Below the pieces are notes generated by a model. The model saw nothing but the letters and a program-made list of their open reading frames with translations. It did no database searches and had not been told where the DNA came from. A DNA stretch of 34,527 bases from an uncultured Blautia sp. (GTDB taxonomy: Bacteria; Bacillota; Clostridia; Lachnospirales; Lachnospiraceae), in NCBI GenBank assembly GCA_945864225.1, contig CAMBAL010000025.1:1-34527 (forward strand), given 5' to 3'. This document shows positions 4,961 through 28,920 of this stretch, piece after piece. Numbering within the stretch: position 1 is the stretch's first letter; each line of letters starts with the position of its first letter. Position numbers and translations under genes: made by a program.

Positions 4961-6362
4961 CCTGATATCCTCCTTGGTATCTTACTTCCAGCACCCGTTC
5001 CGTTTCCGGGGTGATTTTATATTTTTCACTGATCCGTCCGCCTGCGATCCACAGTACATCCGTTCCGCAAACAAGAAGTGGAATCCTTTCACGCTGACTG
5101 GCAGGTATTTTATCATCGATCATGCAGCGTGTGATTTTTTTGCGGCTGCCTTCACTGCTGATGACCAGGGAATCCCCTGATCTCCGGGTACGCACAGACA
5201 GATTCTTTTTCATTTTATCATAATCCATCCATTTCGTATACTTTTTTTCTGAAATCTTCTGCCCAAAATAGGAAAATATTTCTGTGGAAAAATCGCCAAG
5301 CGGACAATGAAGGACTCCCGGAACAGGCAGCGCCCATTCCTTCTCTGACAGATTTTCCATCTCCCTTTCCTCCATACAGATCCGAATCCCGGAATATTCT
5401 TTTCTGGCACAGATTCCTCCGGGAAGAGAAACCTTTTTTCCCGTCTGTTTTTCTCTCAGATTCAGAATCTGCCTGACATGTATGGCTCCGATATCTTTTC
5501 TTCCTGCAGGAAAACTCCCTAATGCCTCCAGTACTGCATAGCTTTGAAGAATCGGTTCTTTCCGGAAAAACTCTTCCGTCAGAAGATATTCCCCCTGCTC
5601 CCGTTCACATTGCGAAAGAAGTTCCTTCCCGCATTTCGTCAGATAATCCTCGGCCTGACAGAGAAGTCCTGACATTTCCGCCATGTGACTGACTGCTTCC
5701 CTGTTGATTTCCTCTTCGATCAGAGGCAGAAGATGATGACGTATGCGGTTTCTTGTATAGGAATCTTCCAGATTGCTGCTGTCTGTCACATATGGAATCC
5801 TGTTCTCTTCTAAATAATGGTCAATTTCTGATCTTTTTAAACACAAAACCGGGCGGATACAATTTCCGTTCACCGGACGGATGCCTCCAAGCCCGCGAAT
5901 TCCGGTTCCTCTTGCCATATTATGAAGCATGGTTTCCGCAAGATCATTCTGATTATGCGCCAAAGCGATCCGGACTCTCCTGCCGTCATCCACGGATTTT
6001 GCCGCATCCTCAAAAGCCCTGCGCCGGACAATTCTCCCCATTTCCTCATGCCCCATTTTTGCCTCCCTGGCAAGCTCCGGGACATCATAATGATATACAT
6101 GGCAGCAAATCCCATGTTCCCCGCAGAATTCCTGTACCAATGCCTGATCCCCGTCTGCCTCCGTTCCCCGGATACCATGGTGTACATGAACAACTTCCAA
6201 CAGAAAATTCTGTTCTTCGACATACTGCATCAGTACGCTCAGCATCGCCATGGAATCACCGCCTCCGGATACCCCGGCAAGTACCCGGTCTCCCGGCCGG
6301 ATCATCTCATTCTCTTCCATAAAAGTTCTGACTTTTGTATACATAACCACTCTGTCCTGCAC
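4953..6362 (-). CDS. tilS: tRNA(Ile)-lysidine synthase TilS
   Basis: Converts the wobble cytidine of the CAU anticodon of one tRNA(Ile) to lysidine, so that it reads AUA; essential in most bacteria. The 469-residue protein has the N-type ATP pyrophosphatase loop SGGGDS (32-37) and the family motif region HNQNDLAETML (about 146-156). A long C-terminal half matches the substrate-recognition domains of longer TilS proteins. The first in-frame start is GTG at 6362, only 3 bases from a weak AAGGA. An ATG at 6344 (residue 7) has AGGA 10 bases before it and may be the true start. It lies 6 bases after spoIIE and overlaps hpt, so it is probably in one operon with both. Confidence 0.95.
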   Translation of the reverse strand: MQDRVVMYTKVRTFMEENEMIRPGDRVLAGVSGGGDSMAMLSVLMQYVEEQNFLLEVVHVHHGIRGTEADGDQALVQEFCGEHGICCHVYHYDVPELAREAKMGHEEMGRIVRRRAFEDAAKSVDDGRRVRIALAHNQNDLAETMLHNMARGTGIRGLGGIRPVNGNCIRPVLCLKRSEIDHYLEENRIPYVTDSSNLEDSYTRNRIRHHLLPLIEEEINREAVSHMAEMSGLLCQAEDYLTKCGKELLSQCEREQGEYLLTEEFFRKEPILQSYAVLEALGSFPAGRKDIGAIHVRQILNLREKQTGKKVSLPGGICARKEYSGIRICMEEREMENLSEKEWALPVPGVLHCPLGDFSTEIFSYFGQKISEKKYTKWMDYDKMKKNLSVRTRRSGDSLVISSEGSRKKITRCMIDDKIPASQRERIPLLVCGTDVLWIAGGRISEKYKITPETERVLEVRYQGGYQDE

Positions 6363-6368
6363 TTTTCC

Positions 6369-7862
6369 TTATTTCTTCCACATACCTGCCACAAGGACAG
6401 TCATATCGTCCCTGGCACGATAATCACTGTATCCCAGTACCCGTTCCAGAATACCGCGGCTGATTTCCTTCGGAGTCTCCTCCTGCACATCCATAATGAT
6501 TTCCTTCATGGTTTCCTCCTCCCGATCCATAGGGAGTGCATCCAGCACACCATCCGTCATCATGATCAGATAATCTCCATGATAAAGCTTGCGGGATGCT
6601 GTTTCAAAATCGATCTGCTGTACCAGACCTGCTGCCAGGCTTTCTGAAGAAATTGCCTCTACCCAGTGATCCCGTTTAATAAAAGTAGAAGCTGCACCGG
6701 CTTTCAGAAAGCTGCAGATTCCTGTATAAAGATCTACTGCACAAATGTCTACCGTGGAAAACATTCCCTCTCTTCCATTCAGCACCAGAGCAGAATTCAC
6801 CATTCTGGCAGCAGTCTCCTGGGAAAATCCGGATTCGAGAAACTGCTCCAGAAGCTCCACCACGATTTCACTTTCTTTGCAGGCTTCCATCCCCGATCCC
6901 ATCCCGTCTGACAGGCACATGACAAATTTCCCGCCTTCTTCCCGGTGAAAAATATAATTGTCACCGGAAACCTTCTCTTCTTCTCTCGTCAGCCGCGCTG
7001 CACCGTAAAGCATCTGATAACTAACATCTTCCACAAAATGTACCGTATGATATTCTCCATTTACAATACAACGGCTCCCCTCCGACGGAACCATGCTGCA
7101 GCCGCAGATTTCTGACAATATCTGCGCCACCTCGCTCATGGAAATGCACTGCCCGCTCCTGGCACGCATGGTGAGAAAAATCTGTCTCCGTCCCTCTACT
7201 TTGTCCATGGCCCAGGCTTCTTTCAGAATAATATGCCGTTTTCTCAAATCTTTCCGGAGATTTTCCCGAAACTCAGGAGAAGCTCTGGAGATATCGTACA
7301 AATCCTCCGCAACTGTTTCCATGATCCTCGAAATCTCCGTAAGCTGCTGTGCCACCGCAAGACGGCTCTCAATCATGCGGTTATCCCAGAACAGGTTCTG
7401 TTTCTCTCTGCGAAAGCTCTCCGTCACATGCTCCAGATACTGACCGGCACGTCCGCAGATACTCATCCATTCTGTCCGCATCCGTCGGATATTTTCTTCT
7501 TTTCCCTCTTCCAGAGCGCGCACTGCCGCTTCGGTTCCCTGTCGCATCGTCTTTTCATGCTCACCCCAGCAGAGATCCCGCTGATAACAGCTGCTGCAGA
7601 CCTGTTCTCTGGCATCCGTCAGAATCTGTTCCACCTGTCCGCTGCTGAGATAATCCTTTCGATAAGGCATTCCATAAAAAGTATCCGCCAGTTTCTGAAA
7701 AGATGCCGCATAGCGCTGAACCTTTTCTTTCTGAGGATGCTTCTCACAAAACGATACCGATTCCTCGGTTCTGCCCTTCTTTCCTGCCAAAATAGTTTTT
7801 GCCATGTCCCGTATGATCAGCGTTACACTGATCACGAGCATGGCAATCATCCATTCCTGCAT
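6369..7862 (-). CDS. spoIIE: Stage II sporulation protein E-like phosphatase (short form)
   Basis: PP2C-type serine phosphatase expected to dephosphorylate the anti-anti-sigma factor SpoIIAA and so release sigma F in the forespore. The 497-residue protein has one N-terminal hydrophobic segment (about 4-18), a charged coiled region with the cysteine motif CSSCYQRDLCW, and a C-terminal phosphatase domain with metal-site motifs SDGMGSG (318-324), DYLIMMTDGVLDALP and ARDDMTVLV. The Bacillus subtilis protein is about 830 residues with ten membrane segments, so the membrane part is greatly reduced here. A longer frame opens at 7931, but the ATG at 7862 has a strong GGGGAGGGGAG site and the 7931 start would overlap the promoter. 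Position between divIC and tilS matches the Bacillus order. Confidence 0.9.
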   Translation of the reverse strand: MQEWMIAMLVISVTLIIRDMAKTILAGKKGRTEESVSFCEKHPQKEKVQRYAASFQKLADTFYGMPYRKDYLSSGQVEQILTDAREQVCSSCYQRDLCWGEHEKTMRQGTEAAVRALEEGKEENIRRMRTEWMSICGRAGQYLEHVTESFRREKQNLFWDNRMIESRLAVAQQLTEISRIMETVAEDLYDISRASPEFRENLRKDLRKRHIILKEAWAMDKVEGRRQIFLTMRARSGQCISMSEVAQILSEICGCSMVPSEGSRCIVNGEYHTVHFVEDVSYQMLYGAARLTREEEKVSGDNYIFHREEGGKFVMCLSDGMGSGMEACKESEIVVELLEQFLESGFSQETAARMVNSALVLNGREGMFSTVDICAVDLYTGICSFLKAGAASTFIKRDHWVEAISSESLAAGLVQQIDFETASRKLYHGDYLIMMTDGVLDALPMDREEETMKEIIMDVQEETPKEISRGILERVLGYSDYRARDDMTVLVAGMWKK

Positions 7863-7898
7863 ATTCTCCCCTCCCCTTAATATCCTCACTAAGTGATT

Positions 7899-7931
7899 AT
7901 TATAGGGGATCTGTTCTGAAATATCTGTCAA
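7899..7931 (-). promoter_or_regulatory. Candidate spoIIE promoter with 21-bp spacing (Spo0A-activated type)
   Basis: On the minus strand, TTGACA (7926-7931) and TATAAT (7899-7904) are both perfect, but 21 bases apart, too far for ordinary sigma A use. The Bacillus subtilis spoIIE and spoIIG promoters have the same 21-22 bp arrangement and need Spo0A. Near matches to the 0A box TGNCGAA overlap and flank the -35: TGACAGA (7924-7930, minus) and CGGCGAA (7936-7942, plus), each with one mismatch. Confidence 0.6.
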
Positions 7932-9874: not shown

Positions 9875-10297
9875 TTACGCCAGGTCTGACGGCTTATTCC
9901 CAGAGGATATGCGAAGCTCTTTTTCACGCTTCTTCAATTCGTCCCATGATAACTGTGCAGCTTCCTGATCTTCCGGTGAAAAAATTTTCGGATGCCGGTA
10001 TTTCATCTTGGCTGATATACCGGTGATCACATCATCCAGGGTAAAGAGTCCTTCCTCCTCTGCGATCCTGCTCTCCAGCACGATCAGCATCAGAAGATCT
10101 CCCAGTTCCTCACACAAATTGGTGCTGTCCCCGCTTCCGGTAAAAATATCGATTCCTTCCAGAACCTCTTCCGTCTCATCCTGGAAATAGGTCTTCAGGC
10201 TTTCGTGTGTCTGGACACTGTCCCATGGACATTTTTCCCGTATCTCACGGATCACATCCAAAAACTCCTCATAGATTTTCATGCTTTTTTCATTCAT
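9875..10297 (-). CDS. mazG: Single-domain MazG-type NTP pyrophosphohydrolase
   Basis: Hydrolyses non-canonical or excess nucleoside triphosphates to monophosphate and pyrophosphate. The 140-residue protein holds one MazG helical domain: CPWD (23-26), the metal-binding ETEE (41-44) and EELGDLL (63-69, giving the ExxD pair). Classical MazG has two such domains (about 260 residues), and Bacillus YabN has an extra methylase-like domain, so this is a compact form. The ATG lies 3 bases after the phosphoglucomutase stop codon with no recognisable ribosome site, so translation is probably coupled. A second ATG at residue 6 is an alternative start. No terminator separates it from the HU promoter. Confidence 0.9.
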   Translation of the reverse strand: MNEKSMKIYEEFLDVIREIREKCPWDSVQTHESLKTYFQDETEEVLEGIDIFTGSGDSTNLCEELGDLLMLIVLESRIAEEEGLFTLDDVITGISAKMKYRHPKIFSPEDQEAAQLSWDELKKREKELRISSGNKPSDLA

Positions 10298-10300
10298 GAT

Positions 10301-12034
10301 CTACATCATGGAATTAACCATATCCAGAACAGCTTTGCCCATGATATCGGATTTTTCATCTGCATCTTCCAGAGAAGTTCCCTTCACGCCATAGTAGAAT
10401 TTTACCTTCGGCTCTGTACCGGAAGGTCTTACGCAAAGCCATACATCATCTGTCAGGTCATAGTAAAGAACATTGGAATTCGGAAGACCGGTCGGTTTTA
10501 CTTCTCCTGTTGCGATATCGGTAATGGTATCTTTCTTGTAGTCTCTTGCGGAGATTACTTTGTGTCCTGCAATCTCTACAGGTGGTTTCTCACGGAGAGT
10601 ATTCATGATTTCCTGAATTTTCTGAAGTCCTTCGATTCCCTTCAGGCTGACAGACTGGATCGCATCTTTGTAATAACCGTACTCTTCGTACATTTCGATC
10701 ATAGCATCCCAGAGAGTCTTGCCCTGTGTCTTATAATAAGCAGCTGCTTCGCAAAGTGCCATTGTAGCAACAATCGCATCTTTGTCTCTTGCATGAGTTC
10801 CGATCAGGCAGCCGTAGCTCTCTTCAAATCCGAACAGGTAAGTTCCCTTTCCACTGGTCTCAAATCCAAGGATCTGCTGTCCGATAAATTTGAATCCTGT
10901 CAGAACCTCGATCAGTTTTACCCCGTATCCTTTGGCAATGGCATCTGCCAGGTTGCTGGTAACGATTGTCTTGATCAGAGCGCCGTCTTCCGGAAGGCTT
11001 CCGTTAACAGCCTTTCTCTGGCCGATTTCATAATTTGCAAGGAGACATCCGGACATATTTCCGGTAAGATCATGGTATTCTCCGTTTTTATCTTTTACAC
11101 GGACACCAAGACGGTCTGCGTCAGGGTCTGTAGCAAGAACCAGGTCTGCATCGATTTCTTTTGCAAGCTTCAGTCCAAGCTCAAATGCTTCTGCTGCTTC
11201 CGGGTTCGGATAGCTGACTGTCGGGAAATCACCGTCCGGCAGTTCCTGTTCCGGTACTACATATACGTTCTCAAAACCAAGTTCTTTCAGAACTCTTCTT
11301 GCAGGAATATTTCCGGTTCCATGAAGAGGTGTGTAAACGATCTTCAGGTTCTTGCCTTCTGCCTGAATTGCATCCATATGGATGACCTGTTTCTTCAGTT
11401 CTGCCATGTAAGCATCATCAATGTCTGCTCCGATCACTTCAAAAAGACCAGCTGCCTCTGCTGCTGCCTTGTCCATGGTCTTAACAGTATTCCAGTCGGA
11501 AATCGCCTTTACCTCAGCCATGATACCGGTGTCATGAGGCGGTGTGATCTGTGCGCCATCTTCCCAGTATACTTTGTATCCATTATATTCCGGCGGATTG
11601 TGGCTTGCAGTGATATTGATACCTGCCACACAGCCGAGTTTGCGTACAGCAAAGGAAAGTTCCGGTGTCGGTCTCAAAGATTCAAAAATGAATGCCTTGA
11701 TGCCGTTTGCTGCCAGACAGAGAGCAGCTTCCTGAGCAAATTCCGGAGACATATGACGGGAATCATATGCGATTGCTACACCCTGAGACTGTTTTCCGAC
11801 TTTTGCAATATAATTGGCAAGTCCCTGTGTGGCACGTCTTACTACATAAATATTCATACGATTGATTCCGGCACCGATAATTCCGCGAAGACCTGCAGTT
11901 CCAAACTCCAGATCCATATAAAAGCGTTCCTTGATCTCATTCTCATCTGCTTCAATTGCTTTTAATTCTGCTTTTGTCTCTTCATCGAAGTATGGGTTCT
12001 CCAGCCATTCGGCATATACCTCTTTGTATTCCAT
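10301..12034 (-). CDS. pgcA: Phosphoglucomutase/phosphomannomutase
   Basis: Interconverts glucose-1-phosphate and glucose-6-phosphate (or the mannose forms), linking glycolysis to cell-envelope sugars. The 577-residue alpha-D-phosphohexomutase shows all four active-site segments: the phosphoserine loop TASHNPPEYNG (142-152, Ser144), the metal loop DPDADRLG (303-310), the sugar-binding GFEESYG, and the phosphate-binding RPSGTEPKVK near the C-terminus. Length fits the PgcA/Pgm2 type. ATG start with GGGAGG upstream. It directly precedes mazG by 3 bases. Confidence 0.95.
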   Translation of the reverse strand: MEYKEVYAEWLENPYFDEETKAELKAIEADENEIKERFYMDLEFGTAGLRGIIGAGINRMNIYVVRRATQGLANYIAKVGKQSQGVAIAYDSRHMSPEFAQEAALCLAANGIKAFIFESLRPTPELSFAVRKLGCVAGINITASHNPPEYNGYKVYWEDGAQITPPHDTGIMAEVKAISDWNTVKTMDKAAAEAAGLFEVIGADIDDAYMAELKKQVIHMDAIQAEGKNLKIVYTPLHGTGNIPARRVLKELGFENVYVVPEQELPDGDFPTVSYPNPEAAEAFELGLKLAKEIDADLVLATDPDADRLGVRVKDKNGEYHDLTGNMSGCLLANYEIGQRKAVNGSLPEDGALIKTIVTSNLADAIAKGYGVKLIEVLTGFKFIGQQILGFETSGKGTYLFGFEESYGCLIGTHARDKDAIVATMALCEAAAYYKTQGKTLWDAMIEMYEEYGYYKDAIQSVSLKGIEGLQKIQEIMNTLREKPPVEIAGHKVISARDYKKDTITDIATGEVKPTGLPNSNVLYYDLTDDVWLCVRPSGTEPKVKFYYGVKGTSLEDADEKSDIMGKAVLDMVNSMM

Positions 12035-12119
12035 ACTTTTGTACCTCCCTTAACTCTTTTATAATCTCCGGTGACCCTAGAGCAATCTTTCCAATCTTCT
12101 CTGTCACCCATGATTGTTA

Positions 12120-12125
12120 ATTATA
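12120..12125 (-). promoter_or_regulatory. Possible -10 element of the phosphoglucomutase gene
   Basis: TATAAT on the minus strand, about 85 bases before the ATG, in an AT-rich segment. No good -35 hexamer is found at 16-18 bases, so the call is tentative. Confidence 0.35.
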
Positions 12126-12169
12126 CTATACTTTTCGTGAAAAATAAAGAGTAATCCGTCATTTTGCAC

Positions 12170-12217
12170 AGAGTGTGTTTGAAAATTGCTCCAGTAAATG
12201 AATTTCAAACATGCTCT
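12170..12217. repeat. Short intergenic repeat, copy 2 (palindromic form)
   Basis: AGAGTGTGTTTGAAAATT (12170-12187) and AATTTCAAACATGCTCT (12201-12217) are near-perfect inverted copies of the same core, giving a 48-base palindrome. It lies 4 bases after the stop of the CotS-like gene and upstream of the phosphoglucomutase promoter region, where it could act as a 3'-end hairpin. Confidence 0.75.
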
Positions 12218-12221
12218 ATCC

Positions 12222-13205
12222 TCAATAGGGATATTTTTCAAAACAGGTTTCTGTAAATGTTTCCCACTGGTCTTTCTGTTTCATGAGAATCCGCAGCTTT
12301 TCCACATTTTTTTCGGATATCCATGCTTTGTTATGAGAATAATAGTAATTAGCAAGCTTCCAGTATTTTTCCGGGTAAGTAAAACGGACCCTGAGATTTT
12401 CCCATTCTTCCGGTGTAATTCGCTTTTCACGATGATAGGCAAGCAGCATCTCTCTGGCAAGCGAAATATCCCATCCGTATTTTTCCATAATTTTACGCAT
12501 GAAGCGATACAGATCTGCCATCTGGACATCGAATCCCCAATGGCTGAAATTCGTCACCGCAATACCGTCCCGCAGCATCAGAACATTGTGCTGGTTATAC
12601 TCTCCATGACACACCTTTCCCTCTTCCACAGACTCTCTGCGCAATCGATCGTAAGAGGAAGATCTCAGCATTTCCAGCGCTTTTTCCCCTTTCTGCAGAA
12701 ATCCCTCCACACTGGAAAGATAATCTTTTTCAAAAGTATTGGAAGCCCCTTTTCTGCGGATGAATTTGCGTATTTTGCGCAGTTCCTGATTATGACGGAC
12801 ATACTCCTCTTCCAGTGATTTCTCCATATATTCCGGTATCAGTGGAAGCTTCATATTTTTATGTAAACCGGCAAGAGTTTTCATGCTTCTGAAAATATCC
12901 TCTCTGGATTTGGTATCACACTCTCTTCCCTCATACCAGCGCGCAAGCGTATACGGAATATCATCTTTATCCCGGCTGATCAGTTCTCCCTCTCTGTTCG
13001 GCACAAAGCTGTCCACTTTTCTTCCGCACGCTTCCAGAGAAAGAAGCAGTTCCTGCTGCTGTTTCAGTTTCTTTTCCGAACCACGGAATTCTTTCAGGAT
13101 AAACAATCCCTGTTCTGTCCGGCATAAAAGCGCGCCCCTTACCCGGGATGTGGAAACCACTGTCAGTTCATATTGCTCCAGAGTGCTGAGTCCGTAATCA
13201 TACAA
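12222..13205 (-). CDS. CotS-family spore coat protein, kinase-like fold
   Basis: A 327-residue member of the CotS/APH-like phosphotransferase group, associated in Bacillus with the spore coat. It has an N-lobe with a VAL-x-LK-like strand (LFILKEF, 34-40) and a C-lobe with the catalytic-loop equivalent CHGEYNQHN (199-207). The usual catalytic Asp of HGD is Glu202, and the metal-binding Asp of the next motif is Asn219 (VTNF), so kinase activity is doubtful. The start is TTG (13203-13205) with GGAGGGGG upstream. CATAAGATA on the minus strand (13239-13247) fits a sigma K -10 (CATANNNTA), but no clear -35 was found. Whether it is in the coat is inference. Confidence 0.82.
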   Translation of the reverse strand: MYDYGLSTLEQYELTVVSTSRVRGALLCRTEQGLFILKEFRGSEKKLKQQQELLLSLEACGRKVDSFVPNREGELISRDKDDIPYTLARWYEGRECDTKSREDIFRSMKTLAGLHKNMKLPLIPEYMEKSLEEEYVRHNQELRKIRKFIRRKGASNTFEKDYLSSVEGFLQKGEKALEMLRSSSYDRLRRESVEEGKVCHGEYNQHNVLMLRDGIAVTNFSHWGFDVQMADLYRFMRKIMEKYGWDISLAREMLLAYHREKRITPEEWENLRVRFTYPEKYWKLANYYYSHNKAWISEKNVEKLRILMKQKDQWETFTETCFEKYPY

Positions 13206-16349: not shown

Positions 16350-16378
16350 ATTCTATGCGAAATACGCGTTTGTGTCAA
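16350..16378 (-). promoter_or_regulatory. SigA-type promoter of the proS T-box leader
   Basis: Perfect TTGACA (16373-16378) and TAGAAT (16350-16355) on the minus strand with 17-base spacing; the predicted RNA start near 16343 coincides with the beginning of the T-box leader. Confidence 0.85.
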
Positions 16379-16380
16379 GA

Positions 16381-16458
16381 GTCTTTTGAGGAGTGCCTGC
16401 AAAAGCCTTTTACGGAGCATCTGTGCCAGGGTTCCTTTTTCGGAGCACATGCAAGAGA
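16381..16458. repeat. Three degenerate ~26-bp tandem repeats upstream of the proS promoter
   Basis: Units beginning TCTTTTGAGGAGTGC (16382), CCTTTTACGGAGCATC (16406) and CCTTTTTCGGAGCACATGC (16434) share CTTTT-NN-GGAG and are spaced 24-28 bases apart. They abut the -35 element of the proS leader promoter. Confidence 0.55.
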
Positions 16459-16484
16459 ATACCCGCGTTAACGGATATTCTCTT
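16453..16484 (-). terminator. Hairpin downstream of the dCMP deaminase gene
   Basis: AAGAGAATACCCG and CGGATATTCTCTT form a 13-bp stem with one wobble and a 6-base loop, 46 bases after the stop of the 16530-17021 gene. No T run follows on the minus strand. It overlaps the last unit of the upstream repeats. Confidence 0.45.
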
Positions 16485-16529
16485 ACTCCCTTTCTCCTTT
16501 CGTACACCGGCTCTCTTCCCGGCCGACGG

Positions 16530-17021
16530 TCATACGGAAAATGAAATTTCTCTTCCCGTCCGGTTATATTTATAATACCGCACTCCCGCTGCGTCCAGCA
16601 TTCTTTTGGACGCGATCACCGATGGGGTATCTGCATATTTATCACAGTCATAAACAATGGTCTTAATCCCTGACTGAATGATTGCTTTTGCACACTCATT
16701 GCAGGGGAACAGGGAAACGTACAGCTTCGCCCCTTCCAGACTGCCGCCGCGGTAATTAAGGATTGCATTCAGTTCACTGTGTGTCACATACAGATACTTG
16801 GTATCCAGCGCATCGCCTTCTCTTCCCCACGGAAATTCATCATCCGAACATCCAATAGGGAAACCGTTATATCCCATGGAAAGGATCTTATTATCCGGAC
16901 TCACAATACATGCACCCACCTGAGAATTCGGGTCTTTGGAACGCATTCCGGAAAGAATGGCAACCCCCATAAAATACTCATCCCAGGAAATATGATCCAT
17001 TCGCTTATCGTTTTTTTCCAT
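16530..17021 (-). CDS. comEB: Deoxycytidylate deaminase family protein (ComEB-like)
   Basis: Zinc-dependent deaminase that converts dCMP to dUMP, feeding thymidylate synthesis; named ComEB in Bacillus but not itself needed for DNA uptake. The 163 residues carry the zinc site THSELNAIL (His81, Glu83) and PCNEC (Cys107, Cys110). The catalytic HxE motif is HSE instead of the commoner HAE. The N-terminal part has the nucleotide-binding NSQVGACIV and GYNGFPIG segments typical of dCMP deaminases. It starts 24 bases after rpiB with GGAGG somewhat far (12 bases) from the ATG; likely cotranscribed with rpiB. Confidence 0.9.
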   Translation of the reverse strand: MEKNDKRMDHISWDEYFMGVAILSGMRSKDPNSQVGACIVSPDNKILSMGYNGFPIGCSDDEFPWGREGDALDTKYLYVTHSELNAILNYRGGSLEGAKLYVSLFPCNECAKAIIQSGIKTIVYDCDKYADTPSVIASKRMLDAAGVRYYKYNRTGREISFSV

Positions 17022-18953: not shown

Positions 18954-20597
18954 ATGAGAAAAACAAAAGCAGCAGTTTCACTTCTCACTGTTTCCGCTCT
19001 TGTTCTCGGACTTACCAGTTTCAACACAACAGTCTTTGCTGAAACCGGCACTTCCGACCTGAACATCATGCTGGAAACTCCGGTAGAATCCCTCGACCCT
19101 CAGCAGGCTACAGACGGAACTTCTTTCGAAGTCATCGCTGACTATACTGACGGTCTGATGCAGATGGATGCAGATGGACAGGCAGTTCCCGCAATCGCAG
19201 AAAGCTATGACCTTTCTGAAGACGGACTTACCTACACCCTCCATTTACGCGACGCATCCTGGAGCAATGGAGATCCTGTCACAGCAGCAGACTTTGTCTA
19301 TGCATGGCAGAGAGCAGTTGATCCGGAAATCGCTTCTGAGTATTCCTACATGTTAAGCGATATCGGTCAGGTCGTAAATGCAGCAGAAATCATCGCCGGT
19401 GAAAAAGACAAGAGCGAACTCGGCGTTACCGCAGTTGATGACAAGACTCTGGAAGTTCAGCTGAACGTACCTGTCAGCTATTTCCTGTCCCTGATGTATT
19501 TGCCGACATTCTATCCGGTAAATCAGGCATTCTACGAATCCGTAGGTGATACTTTCGGAACCAGCCCGGAAACCGTACTTTCCAACGGTGCTTTTACTCT
19601 GGATACATACGAACCGGCTGCAACCGCTTTCCACCTTACCAAGAATGAAGACTACTGGGATGCAGACAGAATTCAGCTTCCAGGACTGAACTATCAGGTA
19701 ATCCAGGATTCTCAGCAGGCTCTCATGAGCTATCAGACAGGTGCTCTTGACACCACTCTGGTAAACGGCGAGCAGGTTGATCAGGTAAAGGACGACCCTG
19801 AATTCCAGACCATCGGTGCCGGATATCTGTGGTACGTAAGCCCAAACATTGATGCTGTTCCGGAACTTGCAAACCTCAACATCCGTCTTGCCATGACTCA
19901 CGCGATCAACCGTGAAGCCATCACAGACGATGTATTAAAAGATGGTTCTATCCCGACCTACACTGCAGTTCCAATGCAGTTTGCAGCCGGTCCTGACGGA
20001 TCTGACTTCTCTGAAGACCAGACCAAATACTCCGATGTCTGCGCATATGACGCTGACAAAGCCGCTGAACTCTGGGCAGCAGGTCTTGAAGAGCTTGGAA
20101 TCTCTGAACTGACACTGGATATGATCGTAGATGCAGATGACGCTCCGCAGAAGGTTGCACAGGTTCTGAAAGAACAGTGGGAAACTACTCTTCCGGGACT
20201 TACCGTAAATCTTACCATCGAGCCGAAGAAACAGCGTGTACAGGATATGCAGGACGGCAACTTTGAAGCAGCACTTACCCGTTGGGGACCGGACTACGCT
20301 GACCCGATGACCTATCTTGGCATGTGGATCACAGGCAACTCCAACAACTACGGTCTGTGGAGCAACGCAGATTACGATGCAATCATCGCTGAATGTACAA
20401 CCGGAGACCTCTGCACAAACGCAGAAGGACGCTGGGCAAGACTGTACGATGCAGAAAAAATCGTTATGGATGATGCAGTAATCTTCCCGCTTTACACTCA
20501 GGCAAATGCAGAAATGCTGTCTTCCAAGGTTACCGGAATCGAATTCCATCCGGTTGCCCTGAACCGCGTTTACAAAAACGCAGCAAAGACAGAGTAA
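18954..20597 (+). CDS. oppA: Oligopeptide ABC transporter substrate-binding protein
   Basis: Extracellular peptide-binding component of an Opp system (SBP family 5). The 547-residue protein starts at ATG 18954 (GAAGGAGG upstream) with a signal peptide: MRKTK, a hydrophobic core, then VFA-ET at residues 27-31 as a signal peptidase I site. No lipobox cysteine is present, which is unusual for a Gram-positive binding protein. SBP hallmarks are SLDPQQATDG, an AESYDLSEDGLTYTLHLR strand pair and the SNGDPVTAADFVYAWQRAVDP motif (described by its first and last residues here: SNGD to AVDP, about 102-121). It is the first gene of the opp operon; hairpins follow it, so its mRNA is probably the most abundant. 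Frames opening at 18906 start without a ribosome site. Confidence 0.95.
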   Translation: MRKTKAAVSLLTVSALVLGLTSFNTTVFAETGTSDLNIMLETPVESLDPQQATDGTSFEVIADYTDGLMQMDADGQAVPAIAESYDLSEDGLTYTLHLRDASWSNGDPVTAADFVYAWQRAVDPEIASEYSYMLSDIGQVVNAAEIIAGEKDKSELGVTAVDDKTLEVQLNVPVSYFLSLMYLPTFYPVNQAFYESVGDTFGTSPETVLSNGAFTLDTYEPAATAFHLTKNEDYWDADRIQLPGLNYQVIQDSQQALMSYQTGALDTTLVNGEQVDQVKDDPEFQTIGAGYLWYVSPNIDAVPELANLNIRLAMTHAINREAITDDVLKDGSIPTYTAVPMQFAAGPDGSDFSEDQTKYSDVCAYDADKAAELWAAGLEELGISELTLDMIVDADDAPQKVAQVLKEQWETTLPGLTVNLTIEPKKQRVQDMQDGNFEAALTRWGPDYADPMTYLGMWITGNSNNYGLWSNADYDAIIAECTTGDLCTNAEGRWARLYDAEKIVMDDAVIFPLYTQANAEMLSSKVTGIEFHPVALNRVYKNAAKTE

Positions 20598-20721: not shown

Positions 20722-21657
20722 GTGAAAAAATATACAGTCAAACGATTGCTGACTTCTCTTTTTACGCTCCTGGCCATCCTGCTGATTCTTTTTATCCTGA
20801 TGCAGTTAATGCCAGGTTCTCCCTTTAACGATGAAAAACTGAATGAGGCACAGAAAGCCTCCCTTTATGCCAAATATGGTCTGGATGACCCCATTGTTAT
20901 ACAGTTTTTCCGTTATGTGGGAAATATGCTCCATGGAGATCTGGGTGTCAGCTACAAAATATCCAAGAATACCCCTATTTCCCAGATGCTGGAAACACGA
21001 CTTCCTGTATCCATTTTTATCGGCGGCTTCGCCGTTTTCATCGGTGCAGTCCTTGGTCTGATCCTCGGACTTATCGCAGCACTGAAACATGACACGATTT
21101 TTGATTCACTTGCAACTATCATTTCCGTTATCGGTGTTTCCGTACCTTCCTATGTATTCGCACTGATGCTCAGCTATTCTCTGGGCTTCCGCATGCAGTG
21201 GTTCCCGATGCTGTATAACGCACAGAATTCCTTTCATTCCAGTGTACTCCCCAGTATCTCCCTTTCCATGTTCACCATGGCATCCATTGCACGTTTTACC
21301 AGAAGTGAAATGCTGGAGGTTCTGGACAGCGATTATATGCTTCTCGCAGAGAGCAAAGGAATATCCGGAGCATCCCTGATTTTCCGTCACGCTCTCCGTA
21401 ATGCACTGATCCCGATCATCACGGTACTTGCTCCGCTGATCGTCGATCTGATGACTGGATCCCTGGTAGTCGAAAAAATCTTTGCTATCCCCGGTGTGGG
21501 AAGCCTTCTGGTAAATGCCATCCAGTCCAACGACTATAATGTGGTCATTTCCCTGAGTTTCATTTATTCTGCAATGTATATCGGTATTATGCTGGTAGTG
21601 GATATCCTCTACGGTATCATCGACCCGCGTATCCGCCTGGCAAAGAAAGGAGACTGA
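20722..21657 (+). CDS. oppB: Oligopeptide ABC transporter permease OppB
   Basis: Inner-membrane channel subunit of the Opp transporter. The 311-residue protein has a first helix (about 10-30) after KRLLTS, a long extracellular segment with the family LPGSPFNDEKL-like stretch, and five further helices. The EAA loop for ATPase contact is near LAESKGISGASLIFRHALRNAL, which starts at about residue 208. The C-terminal segment ends in ILYGIIDPRIRL, as in complete OppB proteins. The start is GTG (20722) with GGAGG upstream. oppC begins 4 bases after its stop codon. The gene appears intact, unlike oppC. Confidence 0.95.
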   Translation: MKKYTVKRLLTSLFTLLAILLILFILMQLMPGSPFNDEKLNEAQKASLYAKYGLDDPIVIQFFRYVGNMLHGDLGVSYKISKNTPISQMLETRLPVSIFIGGFAVFIGAVLGLILGLIAALKHDTIFDSLATIISVIGVSVPSYVFALMLSYSLGFRMQWFPMLYNAQNSFHSSVLPSISLSMFTMASIARFTRSEMLEVLDSDYMLLAESKGISGASLIFRHALRNALIPIITVLAPLIVDLMTGSLVVEKIFAIPGVGSLLVNAIQSNDYNVVISLSFIYSAMYIGIMLVVDILYGIIDPRIRLAKKGD

Positions 21658-21661
21658 GCGC

Positions 21662-22645
21662 ATGAAAGAAACAGCAACTGTCGGTACAGCAGCCGCTTAT
21701 GTCCCTGTTGACGCCGATTTCAAACTGAAAGACAATGCCGGTGATATCACCATCGACACCAACTTTGCTTCCCAGAGTTTCTGGAAAGATGTATTTATCC
21801 GCTATTTCCGCAAAACAAGCGCCGTCATCGGTCTGATTCTCATTATCCTCATCAGCATCATGGCTGTTGTCGGTCCGGGAATGAATGACTATACCTATTC
21901 CGGTCAGGAACTCAGTCAGAAGAATTTTGCACCAAGAGTCAAATGGCTGGAAAAATTCGGAATCATGGATGGTTCCGAAACGATGAAGACCACCACCGGA
22001 TCCATGGAAATCAATTATTACAAAGACAAAGGCCTGGATGACCTCTACTACTGGTTCGGAAGCGACAATTTCGGACGTGACATCTGGACCCGTACCTGGT
22101 CAGGCGCCAGAGTTTCCCTGATCATTGCCATTGCCGCAGCGATCATCGACATGCTCATTGGTATGAGTTATGGTCTGATCTCCGGCTATTTCGGCGGAAA
22201 AGTCGATATGATCATGCAGCGAATCCTGGAGATTGCCAATGGTATACCAAGACTTGTGATTGTTACACTGCTGCTTTTGATTCTCCAACCCGGTATGCTG
22301 ACCATCATCTTCGCCCTGATGCTGACCGAATGGGTGGGAATGAGCCGCATTGCCCGTGCGGAAATGCTGAAGCTCAAAGAGCAGGAATTTGTCCTTGCAT
22401 CCCGTACGCTGGGTGCCGGAAGCTTCTTTATCATCTTTAAGGAAGTTCTTCCGAACATCATCGGACCAATCATTACGCAGGTAATGTTCTCCATTCCTAC
22501 TGCAATATTTACAGAAGCATTTTTAAGCTTCGTCGGACTTGGAATCCCGGTTCCGCAGTGTTCCTTAGGCTCTCTGATTTCCGAAGGATTCAACAGCTTC
22601 ACCACCCATCCGTATCAGATCATTCCTCCCATATCGAACGAATGA
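21662..22645 (+). CDS. oppC: Oligopeptide ABC transporter permease OppC, C-terminally truncated
   Basis: Second channel subunit. The 327-residue frame has an N-terminal cytoplasmic segment, a first helix (about 53-71), a long extracellular domain, the FGSDNFGRDIWTRTW motif (about 132-146), several helices, and the EAA loop ASRTLGAGSFFIIFKEVLPN (about 244-263). Ordinary OppC proteins continue after HPYQIIPP with a last membrane helix and a DALDPK-type tail, about 25-30 residues. Here, after Pro323, only Ile-Ser-Asn-Glu follows before the stop. Immediately afterwards, a different frame reads like the end of OppD. The likely cause is a deletion that fused oppC to the end of oppD. Without the last helix the permease may not work. 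ATG start with AAAGGAG. Confidence 0.9.
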   Translation: MKETATVGTAAAYVPVDADFKLKDNAGDITIDTNFASQSFWKDVFIRYFRKTSAVIGLILIILISIMAVVGPGMNDYTYSGQELSQKNFAPRVKWLEKFGIMDGSETMKTTTGSMEINYYKDKGLDDLYYWFGSDNFGRDIWTRTWSGARVSLIIAIAAAIIDMLIGMSYGLISGYFGGKVDMIMQRILEIANGIPRLVIVTLLLLILQPGMLTIIFALMLTEWVGMSRIARAEMLKLKEQEFVLASRTLGAGSFFIIFKEVLPNIIGPIITQVMFSIPTAIFTEAFLSFVGLGIPVPQCSLGSLISEGFNSFTTHPYQIIPPISNE

Positions 22646-22680
22646 AAAAGGAGGCGCAGAGAAATGGCAGCGAATTATAA
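22630..22680 (+). pseudogene. oppD: Remnant of the oppD C-terminus
   Basis: In the frame ending at the TAA 22678-22680 the sequence reads HIERMKKEAQRNGSEL and stop. This resembles the charged tail of Firmicute OppD proteins. It overlaps the oppF start by 17 bases, as an intact oppD-oppF junction would. No other part of oppD is present in the window. The call is inference from gene order and the tail sequence; the true left limit is the deletion point near 22627-22635. Confidence 0.55.
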
Positions 22681-23602
22681 TGCAGCGCCGATTTTAACAA
22701 TAGAAGGGCTGAAACAGTATTTCAAAGTAAGTAAGAACTACACGGTAAAAGCCGTAGACAATGTTTCCTTTAAAATCTACCCCGGCGAAACATACGGCCT
22801 TGTCGGAGAATCCGGTTCCGGCAAGTCTACCATCGGGCGAAGTGTCATCCGCCTTTATGATCCTACAGAAGGCAAAATCCTTTTCAACGGAATGGATATC
22901 AGCAAAAAAATATCCAAAGCAGATAACAATCGCCTGAGAACTCAGATGCAGATGATTTTCCAGGATCCCATGGCCTCCCTGAATCCCCGCAAAAAGGTCG
23001 AGGATATCATCGGAGAGGGTCTGGACATCCACCATATGTATAAAACCCGTGCAGAACGCAAACAGAAGATTGAAGCCATTCTGGCAAAGGTCGGACTTGC
23101 ACCGGAACATGCATCCCGCTATCCTCACCAGTTTTCGGGCGGCCAGAGGCAGCGTGTCGGCATTGCCCGTGCTCTGATCATGAATCCCAAGCTTATCATC
23201 GCAGATGAATGTATCTCCGCTCTGGATGTTTCTATCCAGGCTCAGGTCGTCAATCTGATGAAAGATATCCAGGAAGAAACAGGTGCCGCGTATCTTTTCA
23301 TCGCCCATGACCTGTCCATGGTCAAATATATCTCTGACCGGATCGGTGTTCTCCATCTGGGACACCTTCTGGAAACCGGAACTACAGAAGAAATCTTCGA
23401 GAATCCTGTACATCCCTATACCAGAAGCCTTCTCTCTGCCATTCCTTCCCCGAATCCGATTCTGGAGAAGAACCGCACAGCAGAGACCTACGACTATAAA
23501 TCTTCTGGTCTGGATTACAATAAAGGAACTGACCACCTGGTATCCGGTACCCACTATGTGAAATGTACCGATGAAGAATTTGAACGATTTCTGAAGCGCT
23601 GA
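22664..23602 (+). CDS. oppF: Oligopeptide ABC transporter ATP-binding protein OppF
   Basis: Cytoplasmic ATPase of the Opp transporter. The 312-residue protein has Walker A GESGSGKST (about 49-57), the Q-loop MIFQDPMASLNPRK, the ABC signature FSGGQRQRVGIARAL (about 157-171), Walker B LIIADECISALD (about 178-189) and the switch histidine in FIAHDLSMV. It ends with the oligopeptide HPYTRSLLSAIP motif and a family-specific tail. Opp normally has two different ATPases (OppD and OppF); here only OppF remains. The ATG is preceded by AAAGGAGG within the former oppD end. The gene ends at a strong terminator. Confidence 0.95.
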   Translation: MAANYNAAPILTIEGLKQYFKVSKNYTVKAVDNVSFKIYPGETYGLVGESGSGKSTIGRSVIRLYDPTEGKILFNGMDISKKISKADNNRLRTQMQMIFQDPMASLNPRKKVEDIIGEGLDIHHMYKTRAERKQKIEAILAKVGLAPEHASRYPHQFSGGQRQRVGIARALIMNPKLIIADECISALDVSIQAQVVNLMKDIQEETGAAYLFIAHDLSMVKYISDRIGVLHLGHLLETGTTEEIFENPVHPYTRSLLSAIPSPNPILEKNRTAETYDYKSSGLDYNKGTDHLVSGTHYVKCTDEEFERFLKR

Positions 23603-23638
23603 GAAAATACACATAGCTATTTCCCCGCAGCAAAGCAC

Positions 23639-23685
23639 AAAACACCCCACAGCAAACCTTACGGATATCTGCTGCGGGGTGTTTT
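23639..23685. terminator. Bidirectional terminator between oppF and the HD-domain gene
   Basis: AAAACACCCCACAGCA and TGCTGCGGGGTGTTTT form a 16-bp stem with one mismatch. A second segment, CCCCGCAGCA (23623-23632), is a perfect match to the same right arm, so two alternative stems are possible. Confidence 0.85.
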
Positions 23686-23688
23686 CAT

Positions 23689-24270
23689 TTACTGCCGGAT
23701 ATAAATTCCCTGCTCCTCGATCCAGTCTTCCAGATCCTGCAGGCCATCCTGTGCCCAGGTCTCCGACATCTGAAACTCTTCCGGATAAAACATATCTCTG
23801 GCAATCGTTTTTCCGGTTTCTGTCCGGAAAATCTTTTTGACACTGGCTTTGATACTTTCCTCATCAAGTCCGTCTTCAAAATAATTCACCAGAAAATCTG
23901 CCTCTACCAGAATCTGATAGTCCAGACCATCGATATCCGTATAAGTATGATGATGTCCGACCAGATACGCAACTCTCTCGATCACATCCGGAGCAAATCC
24001 AAGTCCTTTCAGCATTTCTTCCGCATAAGCCGGTCCTTCCTGTTCCTGAAGCTTTCCATTGCAGTTCCCGTATTTCTCCATAGCCGGACGGATTCCGATA
24101 TCATGGACAAGTGCGGCTGCTTCCAGAATATACTGTGTTTTTTCATCCAGATGCTCTTCCTGACCAATCAGCCGTGCAAAATTATGTACTTTGGTAAAAT
24201 GCTGGATTCTTTTCGCGTCACCCTTGTCAAACGCGATCATTTTCTTATAAAGTTCATTCATTCGACTCAT
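23689..24270 (-). CDS. HD-domain phosphohydrolase family protein
   Basis: A 193-residue metal-dependent HD-superfamily protein of the small stand-alone type. Metal ligands are visible as His29 (HNFAR), the core pair in AALVHDIGIRP (about 52-62), and His-rich LVGHHHTYTDIDGLDYQ (about 102-118). A later Asp (VEADFLVNYF, about 122-131) completes the set. Substrate is unknown; related proteins act on nucleotides or phosphorylated small molecules. ATG start with GGAGG. It converges with oppF on a shared terminator. A nearby promoter was not identified with confidence. Confidence 0.88.
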   Translation of the reverse strand: MSRMNELYKKMIAFDKGDAKRIQHFTKVHNFARLIGQEEHLDEKTQYILEAAALVHDIGIRPAMEKYGNCNGKLQEQEGPAYAEEMLKGLGFAPDVIERVAYLVGHHHTYTDIDGLDYQILVEADFLVNYFEDGLDEESIKASVKKIFRTETGKTIARDMFYPEEFQMSETWAQDGLQDLEDWIEEQGIYIRQ

Positions 24271-24530: not shown

Positions 24531-26774
24531 TCAGAACTCCATATTTACCTTCAAAATCCACGTGCCATAGTTTTCATCACGGAATACTACCTCACCCATC
24601 GTTTCCAGAAGTGCCTCATTCAGATTTTCTCCATATTTTTCTCTTTCCCTGGCACCGACAAAAATATAGGAAACATCATAATACTCCAGAAGATTTTTCA
24701 CCTCTTCCGCATCCGCAGAAGTATAAATTGTTTCTACTTCCGCACTTTTCTCATTCAGATCCTCCACATCGTTTCTCCAGAGCCATTCATGCACACGCCA
24801 TCCTACAATGGTAGGCAGCCCGGTCATTGCGGATACACGGTTAAAGGCAGTATAACTGTCACCATTGGCTTCCAGCACAACCGGTGAACCATCAACATTC
24901 TCCTTCAGCCAGTAAATCCCTGCTGCATCCTCCGGAAATTCTGTTTCGATATAAGCCACTGCATTTAACCCCTGATAAACCTCAGGTTTCCATACTTCTC
25001 CAAACCATGCCCGCACACTGTTGCCAAAATATCCGCAGGTACAGACAAGAAGAAACAGTCCAATGCCGGACAGCACTTTTATCACTTTCTGTCTGGAAAG
25101 AAGCAGCATTCGATAGATTACATAACCCATCGTCATACCAAACAGAAGATAAGCCTGATAAGTCAGCTTGAACATGGTATTGGCACGGGCATATCCATTC
25201 TCATAAATGTCCCGCACATAGACAATTTCCGGAATTATCACCAGTCCTATAGCACAAAGCCCCATGATCACTGCAAACAGGTCAGGAATACAAACAGAAC
25301 GCATCCATGTATAAAGATTCTTTTTTCTTTTTCTGAAAAGCTTTTCCCGAAGCACACAAATCAGAAACAGAATCGTCAGCATTGCCGGAAGTCCCCACAA
25401 TACCAGAAGCTGGTATGGCAGAGAATGAAATTGCGCCAGTGCAATTCCTTCAACCATGGTCTTGAATTTCAGCGTAAACGGCAGAATAACCAGATAGGAA
25501 ATTCCCAGAACTTCCACAGCCTGCGCAGCTGTCACTGCCAGAATTGTTTTCCATTTTCCCTCAAACCGTACAATGTTCATAAACAGCACAGCACCGCCGG
25601 TTACTACAAAATAAATCACAAAATCCCAGAAATTCGTCCACTGAAACATCCCTAGAAGAAGACTCACCAGAAGAAGGGCCGGAATAAGAAGCTGCTCTTT
25701 CCAGAACCGGACACTGCTTATTTCTGAAGATAAGGAATGTCTTCGTGTCTCCTGCATCCACGCATACAGAAGCCCCATCAGCAATAAAACAAAAAAGATA
25801 TTCACCACATGCGCATGCAAATCTCCGAGCACAAAAGAATAACACGGAAATTCATGAATGGTCTTATCCGGCACATCCGGATCATAACCAATATACCGAG
25901 TTGCATCCGGGAACCAGTAACTGCTGATATTTTCTGCCCCGGTCATCTTCTCAATGGCCGGAATGAGTACCCCGTAGATCACATAATGCATGTTTCCGGC
26001 AATAGAAACCGCCACACCCGCTGTTATACCGGAAACCGCCGGAATCCATGCTTTTTTTCTGCGCATTCCCCGTCCAAGCCTGTCTGATGTCATCTGATAT
26101 ACCAGAGAAAACGGCAGGACAAACGCAAACGCCGCAACAAAAGTCCTCATAAGGTTATACGTGAGTTCCGGTTTGCTGCCTGAAAGCTTTGTAAGAAATA
26201 CGGCAAAATACTGCCCGCCATAATAATAATTGATATGTCCCTCTGAATACCACAGATCCACTGCCGGGAGTTCCGTACTGCGCATCATCGCTTCCATGAA
26301 GCCATAATCCATAAATTTCTCTGTTCCATATGCCGCAGGATGAAATCCTGCCAGATATGTCCACATAAGAAATATGGCAAAAAACAGGATTTCTTCCCAG
26401 AAAACCAGATTCACTCCACCTGTTGGAAAGCATTCTTTCCCTGTTCTGCTCTGATGCCGGAACAGAATCCCGCAGCCAAGAGCACACACGATCACTACTC
26501 CCGCACATGTCCATACCGTAAAATCCAGAAGATTCACTGCCACCAGAAACCAGGTAAGGAATCCTGTCACCGCAATGCACAGCACCTTGGAAAACATCCA
26601 TCCCTTATCTTCAAACCCGGAAAAGAGCATTCCCGTCACAGGCATCGCCAGAAGTCCCAGAACTCCTGCCAGCAGATACCATGTCCAGAATATCCATACA
26701 TCTCCTTTCAGCAAAAATGCGGAAATTCCCAGCAATGCAATTATCAGAATTATTTTTCCAATCTTTTTTTTCAT
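24531..26774 (-). CDS. DUF2298 (YYY-domain) polytopic membrane protein
   Basis: A 747-residue membrane protein with a dozen or more hydrophobic segments and a soluble C-terminal domain. The family motif GHINYYYGGQYFAVFLTKL (about 171-189) and the later VLGDLHAHVVNIFF identify the DUF2298/YYY group. Family function is not established; I recall it being grouped with GT-C type lipid-linked sugar transferases. Just before the YYY motif is an acidic loop (EKFMDYGF to VDLWY) that may be the catalytic first extracellular loop. The C-terminal part (about 590 onward) is predicted extracellular, with GWRVHEWLWRN. The start at 26774 has AGGAGG; the longer frame to 26918 has none. It follows a paralogous gene by 40 bases. 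Confidence 0.85.
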   Translation of the reverse strand: MKKKIGKIILIIALLGISAFLLKGDVWIFWTWYLLAGVLGLLAMPVTGMLFSGFEDKGWMFSKVLCIAVTGFLTWFLVAVNLLDFTVWTCAGVVIVCALGCGILFRHQSRTGKECFPTGGVNLVFWEEILFFAIFLMWTYLAGFHPAAYGTEKFMDYGFMEAMMRSTELPAVDLWYSEGHINYYYGGQYFAVFLTKLSGSKPELTYNLMRTFVAAFAFVLPFSLVYQMTSDRLGRGMRRKKAWIPAVSGITAGVAVSIAGNMHYVIYGVLIPAIEKMTGAENISSYWFPDATRYIGYDPDVPDKTIHEFPCYSFVLGDLHAHVVNIFFVLLLMGLLYAWMQETRRHSLSSEISSVRFWKEQLLIPALLLVSLLLGMFQWTNFWDFVIYFVVTGGAVLFMNIVRFEGKWKTILAVTAAQAVEVLGISYLVILPFTLKFKTMVEGIALAQFHSLPYQLLVLWGLPAMLTILFLICVLREKLFRKRKKNLYTWMRSVCIPDLFAVIMGLCAIGLVIIPEIVYVRDIYENGYARANTMFKLTYQAYLLFGMTMGYVIYRMLLLSRQKVIKVLSGIGLFLLVCTCGYFGNSVRAWFGEVWKPEVYQGLNAVAYIETEFPEDAAGIYWLKENVDGSPVVLEANGDSYTAFNRVSAMTGLPTIVGWRVHEWLWRNDVEDLNEKSAEVETIYTSADAEEVKNLLEYYDVSYIFVGAREREKYGENLNEALLETMGEVVFRDENYGTWILKVNMEF

Positions 26775-26814
26775 CTGTTCCTCCTGTTTTTTCCGGTATT
26801 TGATACTGTCACTC

Positions 26815-28836
26815 TCATTTTTCTGATGCCTGATAGATTCGAATCCTTCCGTCATTCGACGTATATACCAGAGGATACGCATCAGCAATGGCATCTTCCC
26901 TGCATGTTTTCTCCTCAAAGGTCATCCCCTCCTGAAACAGAATATAATCAATTCCTTCCTGCTCCGTCAGGGACTTCACTTCCTCTGCATAAGGAGTCGT
27001 ATAAATCAAAACTGCCACCGAAGCCCGGTAATACGTATCATACCCTGCAGACCACGCATAATACGGCCATCCGCAGTACATCATCACACCGGCCATCGTT
27101 ACCTCGTTCATACTGTATTCCGGTGTCAGAATCAAATCACTGCTGTCCAGATTTTCTTCCAGCCATTCTGTGAGATCACTGTCCATGACAACTCCCACCC
27201 GGTGACCCCTGTCATTATCTTTCAGAATCACTACGAAATCATAAATTCCTGTAATTGTCAGACAAACTGCCAGAACCACTGCCGCCGCTTTTCCCGTGAT
27301 TCCCTTCTTCCATAGACGAAGCAGCACATATGCCCAGAAAATTGTCAGAAATGCATACGCAATCATCACATATTTATGATTCACATTGATATCCGGTGTC
27401 AGAGAAATACAAAATGCAAACAAAACAGGAAACAAAAATGCTGTCAGAACTGACCGTTTCATCCTGTCCAGAAAAAGAGCAAGAATCAGAAATCCGACAA
27501 AAAAGATTCCGCTCATCTGAATCAGATACCACAGCACACCCGGCAGTGATTTGTCCTCCGCAAGAAATCCCCAGTAAAACGAAAAAGTCATTCCGCCTTC
27601 TTTGATAAAAATTTTCGTCTGAATCAAAGAACATATCACAGCCGCAAGAGCAGTAAGCGCATAGTCCAGTTTTCCATCGGAAAACAACCCGAATCCCATA
27701 AGGATCAAAAGCCCTCCGATCACAGCTGCTCCATTCCAGAAGGAACTAAGTCCCAGCAGAATCCCCACTGCCAATGCCCGGCCTGCATCCCGAAACATCC
27801 AGGCTTCTCTGCTGAATAACCTTTTTTTCATCCAGCACAGCCCTGTTTCCGTATGCCGGTCTCCGGCCTCTACCCAGTCCAGATAGATCCATAATGCCGT
27901 ACAGACGATGATCAGGCCAAAAGCCAGATGTCTCTGATTCAGATAAACATTAAAATTCCACAGCCCCCAGTCTTCATTGGCCGTATAGCCAATAAAGGAG
28001 GTATTTTCTTTAAGTACCTGCCACAAATCTCCTGCCTGCACATGCTCTGCCGCAAACCGGAAAAAAGCAGTCCCGCTTCTGAAAAAAAAGAGCACTACAG
28101 CACCTGCACCAGCAGCAGCCATTCCTGTGATCCGGACAGCCAGACCATACAGCATCATCAGAAATCCAAGCAGCGCCAATACACTGATCAGATTATAAGC
28201 CAGATCCAGCCTCATACCCAGATATTCCAGATTTCCTGCCAGAAACTGAAACATGAAATGGTATTTTACATCAGAACCTCCATAATGTGGATACTGTGTC
28301 GGAAAATTATCTCCTCTGGAAAACGACCGCATCATTGCAGTATGCGGTGCATAATCACCAAAGACACTGAACCCGGAATAAAGCACACCGTCCTTAATAT
28401 GAAACACATAAAACATTATCCACAAAAGAAAAACGGCCAAAATTGCAAAAAATACGGCTTCCCTTTCATATTCCCCGCTTTCGGTCAGGAATTTCTCTCT
28501 TATGTTTCGATTTCTGCAAAATCGCATCAAAAAAACGCCACCGACTCCCGCATATCCTGCTGCCATAACCACAATATTCCCATAAAAAAGCGGTTCTGTT
28601 TTCTGAAAGATAACATCTGCCGCCCAGGAAATCCCGTAAACCGCCCAGGTTACTGCAAGCGTTCCTGCCGCAAACGCCGCCGGCCAGAATATCCAGCAAA
28701 AATTCTGTCCGGAAACAGCATATGTATTTTCTGTCCCGGAAGTAACGTTTTTTTCATGATTTATGCGAAATAAGAACCTTGCTGCCAGTTCCCGTCCCAC
28801 AAGCATACATAATAATATATAAACAATACCAAGCAT
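26815..28836 (-). CDS. Large polytopic membrane protein, paralogous to the DUF2298 protein
   Basis: A 673-residue membrane protein with numerous hydrophobic helices and a soluble C-terminal domain. It is not a standard named family to me. The region around GDYAPHTAMMRSFSRGDNFP (its length is 20) aligns by eye with the DUF2298 neighbour: D-x2-F/P-x2-A-MMRS, then YHFMFQFLAG against YYGGQYFAVF, then LAYNL against LTYNL. The C-terminal domains also share an ILTPEYSMNEVTMAGV/VVLEANGDSYTAFN-like start and a final GIDYILFQ/VSYIFVG strand. A GT-C-like glycosyltransferase role is inference. Start ATG 28836 has AGGAG 6 bases upstream; the frame continuing to 28899 lacks a ribosome site. Probably cotranscribed with the next gene. 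Confidence 0.75.
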   Translation of the reverse strand: MLGIVYILLCMLVGRELAARFLFRINHEKNVTSGTENTYAVSGQNFCWIFWPAAFAAGTLAVTWAVYGISWAADVIFQKTEPLFYGNIVVMAAGYAGVGGVFLMRFCRNRNIREKFLTESGEYEREAVFFAILAVFLLWIMFYVFHIKDGVLYSGFSVFGDYAPHTAMMRSFSRGDNFPTQYPHYGGSDVKYHFMFQFLAGNLEYLGMRLDLAYNLISVLALLGFLMMLYGLAVRITGMAAAGAGAVVLFFFRSGTAFFRFAAEHVQAGDLWQVLKENTSFIGYTANEDWGLWNFNVYLNQRHLAFGLIIVCTALWIYLDWVEAGDRHTETGLCWMKKRLFSREAWMFRDAGRALAVGILLGLSSFWNGAAVIGGLLILMGFGLFSDGKLDYALTALAAVICSLIQTKIFIKEGGMTFSFYWGFLAEDKSLPGVLWYLIQMSGIFFVGFLILALFLDRMKRSVLTAFLFPVLFAFCISLTPDINVNHKYVMIAYAFLTIFWAYVLLRLWKKGITGKAAAVVLAVCLTITGIYDFVVILKDNDRGHRVGVVMDSDLTEWLEENLDSSDLILTPEYSMNEVTMAGVMMYCGWPYYAWSAGYDTYYRASVAVLIYTTPYAEEVKSLTEQEGIDYILFQEGMTFEEKTCREDAIADAYPLVYTSNDGRIRIYQASEK

Positions 28837-28920
28837 ACCGTTCTCCTGCGCTTCCTCATCATCTCTTGTCATCCATCCTGCCTCATTTTGGATGCACAAC
28901 TGTTTTCTCTATTACTTCCA

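Follow-up and report, generated by a model that had tools for sequence, protein, structure and literature searches.

The closest described systems are the OppABCDF and DppABCDF importers, which comprise the same gene set and domains as the locus examined here and provide solved relatives for OppC, OppF, and OppD (PDB entries 8z21 for Opp and 8z1v for Dpp, both of which we take to be from E. coli). In comparison to these importers, the locus keeps only the last 16 codons of oppD, and its oppC lacks the last 28-29 codons. It lies in a window of 34,527 bases, a whole contig of a draft assembly (2.67 Mb, 115 contigs, 84.37% complete).

In the part of the structural study of E. coli Dpp that is cited here, TM3-TM6 of both permeases are described to converge into the pathway. 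The contacts are between DppB and DppD and between DppC and DppF, and ATP can be bound and hydrolysed by both ATPases (PMC12136057). In Listeria, an oppD knockout and an oppF knockout are stated to have reproduced the phenotype of the opp transposon mutants, and Opp function to have been disabled by an oppF mutation (PMC6389498).

Strain-level loss of opp genes is already in print, and the locus in the window most likely represents an ordinary gene-breaking deletion. According to the cited portion of a survey of H. pylori, all four opp genes were predicted to be functional in 58 of 75 strains, putatively inactive oppA, oppC, and oppD were found in 13.33%, 9.33%, and 2.66% of the strains, respectively, and no oppF is given as identified (PMC7448279). 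For Mycoplasma synoviae, the cited excerpt describes oppF or oppA as a pseudogene in one of the two operons (PMC5797395), and an intact opp cluster is placed on a plasmid in the relevant passage of a further study (PMC6098607). As far as these sources go, the H. pylori and M. synoviae alleles resemble the locus described here in being strain-level opp inactivations, but each of them affects a single gene, through substitutions, stops, frameshifts, or insertions, whereas one deletion affecting two genes would account for this locus.

Gene order and junction of the opp operon

Open reading frames and Pfam matches gave the gene order oppA-oppB-oppC'-oppF with all genes in the same direction (Table 1), as the first-pass annotation had read it. 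The open frame of oppA extends back to 18906, and 18954 is its likely start, which gives 547 aa as in three relatives. Compared to an oppABCDF importer, the family 5 substrate-binding protein is present (PF00496, E 1.5e-77), and of the two six-helix permeases, OppB is complete and OppC stops short of the last helix. Instead of the two ATPases OppD and OppF, the operon retains OppF only, which bears out the earlier view that the transporter was left with a single ATPase type and a shortened permease. That oppF and its start had stayed intact was also correctly recognized, as the frame is full and AAAAAGGAGG is retained 5' of the oppF ATG (22664). By sequence patterns, OppF has the Walker A, Q-loop, signature, Walker B, D-loop, and H-loop motifs.

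Table 1. Features of the opp locus (positions in the window)
Feature	Positions	Strand	Remarks
oppA, substrate-binding protein, intact	18954..20597	+	PF00496 (SBP_bac_5); 547 aa
oppB, permease, intact	20722..21657	+	PF00528 (BPD_transp_1)
oppC, truncated	21662..22645	+	Pfam OppC_N and BPD_transp_1
putative deletion junction	22628..22633		1-3 nt possible overlap; 1140-1146 bp of four relatives missing
oppD 3' remnant, HIERMKKEAQRNGSEL and stop	22630..22680	+	stop 22678-22680; alternative frame
oppF, ATPase, intact	22664..23602	+	Pfam ABC_tran and oligo_HPY

The terminus of OppC reads ...THPYQIIPPISNE, followed by the stop codon at 22643-22645. OppC is native through QIIPP or QIIPPI and then continues with SNE and the stop (QIIPP-ISNE), and the final 28-29 residues, which include the last membrane helix, are gone. 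The junction reading and the full tails of the relatives thus agree with the description of an OppC that ends four residues past QIIPP without its last helix. The oppD remnant frame codes for the 16 C-terminal OppD residues and shares 17 bases with the start of oppF. The first-pass annotation had called this frame exactly like the tail of OppD; it is indeed an OppD tail that overlaps oppF, but the wording was slightly overstated, as the tail is identical at 13 of 16 positions to the OppD terminus of the closest relative G039, RIERMKKEAQKHGSEL.

Comparison with relatives and origin of the junction

A DNA search of 64 genomes of the genus, the window's own included, gave some match in 34 genomes, mostly short or weak, and the oppC side was matched at 80% identity or more in five other genomes. 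Genes were read in six stretches of the genus (G039, G040, G036, G060, G030, and G059). The region from oppB to oppF was whole in the first four of them, with an oppC of 352-354 aa, an oppD of 362-367 aa, and an oppF of 312-317 aa (oppA of G036 is cut at the contig end). In G030, oppC is complete at 355 aa and oppD is cut at the contig end, and G059 contains a more distant operon with a different gene order, in which the OppC tail is full and no oppD follows it within the stretch. The oppC and oppF sides of the window are 76-86% identical to the four whole relatives, and oppD fills the gap in all four. The alignments stop at 22623-22636 and pick up again at 22628-22633, and the window lacks 1146 bp in comparison to G039, 1144 bp to G040, 1140 bp to G036, and 1145 bp to G060, which supports the initial proposal that a deletion of about 1 kb had removed the end of oppC and almost all of oppD.

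For a wider comparison, OppC was searched in genome_contigs, and the best 80 of 194 relatives were kept, partly selected by the pattern at the oppC end. About half of these 80 loci are labelled Lachnospiraceae, and the others include, for example, Oscillospiraceae, Faecalibacterium, and Gemmiger. A full-length OppC with an OppD match within 600 bases downstream was found in 78 of the best 80 of 194 loci, and the remaining two (L093 and L099) are cut by a contig end within THPYQIIP. Among these 80, contigs that end early give an incomplete oppD or oppF match or none at all, and in one locus (L057) the ATPase match that follows OppD shows only 53% identity to OppF. We dropped the idea of a shared breakpoint at THPYQIIP in L093 and L099, as 11 of the 80 loci end within oppC-oppF and the loci were partly picked by the pattern at this position. 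In a sample of 397 genomes of the family, 18 matches at E 1e-120 or better were obtained, the window's own included, and all other 17 have the full OppC tail, OppD, and OppF. The comparison sets overlap in part, as G039, G040, G036, G060, and G030 appear to be among the 80 loci, as do at least three of the 17 family genomes. Relatives with the same short oppC, which the first-pass annotation had named as evidence against its own reading, were looked for, and the short form was found neither in the four genus relatives nor in the best 80 of 194 loci (apart from the two contig-end cuts, all full) nor in the 17 family genomes. The intact form is the rule at this place in the relatives.

From these comparisons, we consider it likely that a standard five-gene oppABCDF importer operon was broken by a single deletion of about 1.14 kb. 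The deletion would have taken the last 28-29 codons of oppC, a short spacer, and about 348 of the 364 codons of oppD, and we infer that it is real and recent. The junction bases fit either side over only 1-3 nt, the exact length varying with the choice between two one-base differences from the relatives. With random breakpoints, at least 2 nt are expected to be shared in about 16% of cases by computation, and there is therefore no sign of microhomology at the junction. A repeat at the breakpoints was not found, and the longest direct repeat nearby in G039 (9 nt) lies away from them. As k-mer collapse requires about 20 nt or more, the overlap of just 1-3 nt makes such a collapse unlikely, and the same holds for recombination between repeats, so that the deletion probably arose by illegitimate (non-homologous) joining. 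The exact 36-base junction gave no match in viral_contigs, which is an unsuitable collection, so that this result carries little weight.

Alternatively, as the first-pass annotation had also considered, the junction may be an assembly artefact, in which an intact oppD was skipped via a misjoin, a chimeric read, gap filling, or a mixture of deleted and undeleted strains. The lack of a repeat at the breakpoints makes an assembly error less likely, the window contains no N, and a difference of 663 bp from G040 elsewhere in the window corresponds to a whole gene that was also not found there in 21 of 29 further loci from the genus. An artefact would be favored by the state of the draft (115 contigs, 84% complete), by an imperfect collinearity of the window with G039 at about 10267-12229 and at 16363-16534, and by the related scaffold L105, in which what looks like a scaffolding fault is present inside oppD (5255-6476): the gene is split by an N run that is flanked on either side by repeated sequence, and the frame changes. 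Taken together, we regard an artefact as unlikely.

The search for another oppD in the genome, which had been suggested as a check, revealed paralogues only. In this assembly of about 84% completeness, an oppD orthologue was not found among 71 matches, the best of which were 50% and 47% identical, whereas the OppD matches at the genome_contigs loci were 71-100% identical. This absence is weak evidence against an artefact, as an orphan piece of 1.1 kb is usually too short for binning. A complete B-C-D-F set was found on contig C32 (558-6189; frames and Pfam). The two permeases of this set have 305 and 346 aa, and the two ATPases, both oligo_HPY, have 331 and 350 aa. The OppD among them is the one that is 47% identical to a relative's counterpart of the lost OppD. 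The set adjoins an L-rhamnose isomerase gene, the stretch read contains no binding protein, and the substrate may therefore be a sugar rather than a peptide, which weakens the case for a back-up of peptide uptake. On contig C101, genes for a binding protein and two permeases are accompanied by an OppD-like one (50%) that is cut at the contig end, and further importer matches are on contig C20. Other importers may make the loss tolerable.

Predicted function and constraint of the remaining genes

The missing OppC tail, which comprises 29 residues after QIIPP in G039, contains the most C-terminal hydrophobic segment and aligns with residues of about 276-300 at the end of the solved OppC (PDB 8z21). 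By analogy to the E. coli importers, OppC would be without its sixth, pathway-forming helix and OppB without its presumed cognate ATPase, and the importer is therefore probably dead. The oppF gene is probably still translatable, since the ribosome-binding site is retained and the stop of the truncated oppC lies 18 nt before the oppF start. If the deletion is real, it adds another case of a bacterium that lost one of several related importers, and the usable peptides would change. The main relevance is for annotation, in that this transporter should not be listed as functional for the genome.

Selection on the remaining genes was assessed by pairwise dN/dS of the window against G039, G040, and G060, with oppC taken before the break. 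The values were 0.044-0.067 for oppA, 0.040-0.051 for oppB, 0.043-0.056 for oppC, and 0.028-0.038 for oppF; they are long-branch averages, blind to recent relaxation and in part obtained with dS near saturation, so that the event is not datable from them. Amino-acid changes unique to the window amount to 15, 6, 9, and 9 in oppA, oppB, oppC, and oppF, respectively, which is fewer than the 38, 16, 11, and 11 own changes of the most changed relative, G060. By this measure, the surviving genes appear normally constrained with no sign of a long decay. The low dN/dS and the few window-only changes suggest that the loss is probably recent on this branch, or that the remaining genes are still constrained.

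The intact and constrained state of oppA, oppB, and oppF, together with the ATPase motifs kept in OppF, would also suit a fixed functional variant with one ATPase type, in which the short OppC and OppB work with an OppF homodimer or with an OppD from a paralogous system. Paralogous OppD proteins are present in the genome, and H. pylori, for which the cited part of the survey gives no known oppF, suggests that an Opp system with a single ATPase type exists naturally (PMC7448279). However, the short form is absent from every relative examined, OppC is without a helix of the translocation path, OppF corresponds to the ATPase that pairs with DppC and not with DppB in E. coli, and none of the paralogous OppD proteins exceeds 50% identity to the OppD of a relative. 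Such a variant is thus very improbable. We give similarly little credence to the idea that the deletion is fixed in the species and that the OppA-OppB-OppC'-OppF remnant is kept for another use, for which OppA and OppF may serve a paralogous translocator, or OppF and the five-helix OppC may form a working or regulatory complex.

Other differences across the window

Two further regions were considered as candidates for gene-breaking deletions, and both were rejected. The SpoIIE gene at 6369-7931 (-) encodes no more than about 520 aa, and its match to the SpoIIE_N model (605 positions) is limited to positions 308-599, with the N-terminal part missing. Of 42 same-genus genomes searched, 30 besides the window's own had a match, and the SpoIIE frames in 29 of them are similarly short (452-558 aa), the remaining one (G013) consisting of two fragments; the short form is thus not a second gene-breaking deletion. 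For the 16 matches outside the family but within the order, the frames have 773-819 aa.

The 663 bp that are absent in comparison to G040 near 26708-26885 correspond to a glycosyltransferase-like gene. This gene lies between a DUF2298 gene and a gene for a 694-aa protein in 8 of 30 same-genus loci and is not present in the window (about 26774-26815, -), in agreement with variation in gene content and not with a gene-breaking deletion. A protein that is 60% identical to the glycosyltransferase-like one is encoded on contig C9 of the same assembly. The 694-aa protein (26815-28899, -) matched no Pfam family at E 0.001, and a relative of it adjoins the DUF2298 gene in all 30 same-genus loci examined, the window's included.

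G039 has no counterpart of the region of about 10267-12229 at that position, which in the window holds a phosphoglucomutase-like gene, and is about 1.8 kb longer than the window at 16363-16534. A difference of 235 bp from G040 is located at 23589-23691.
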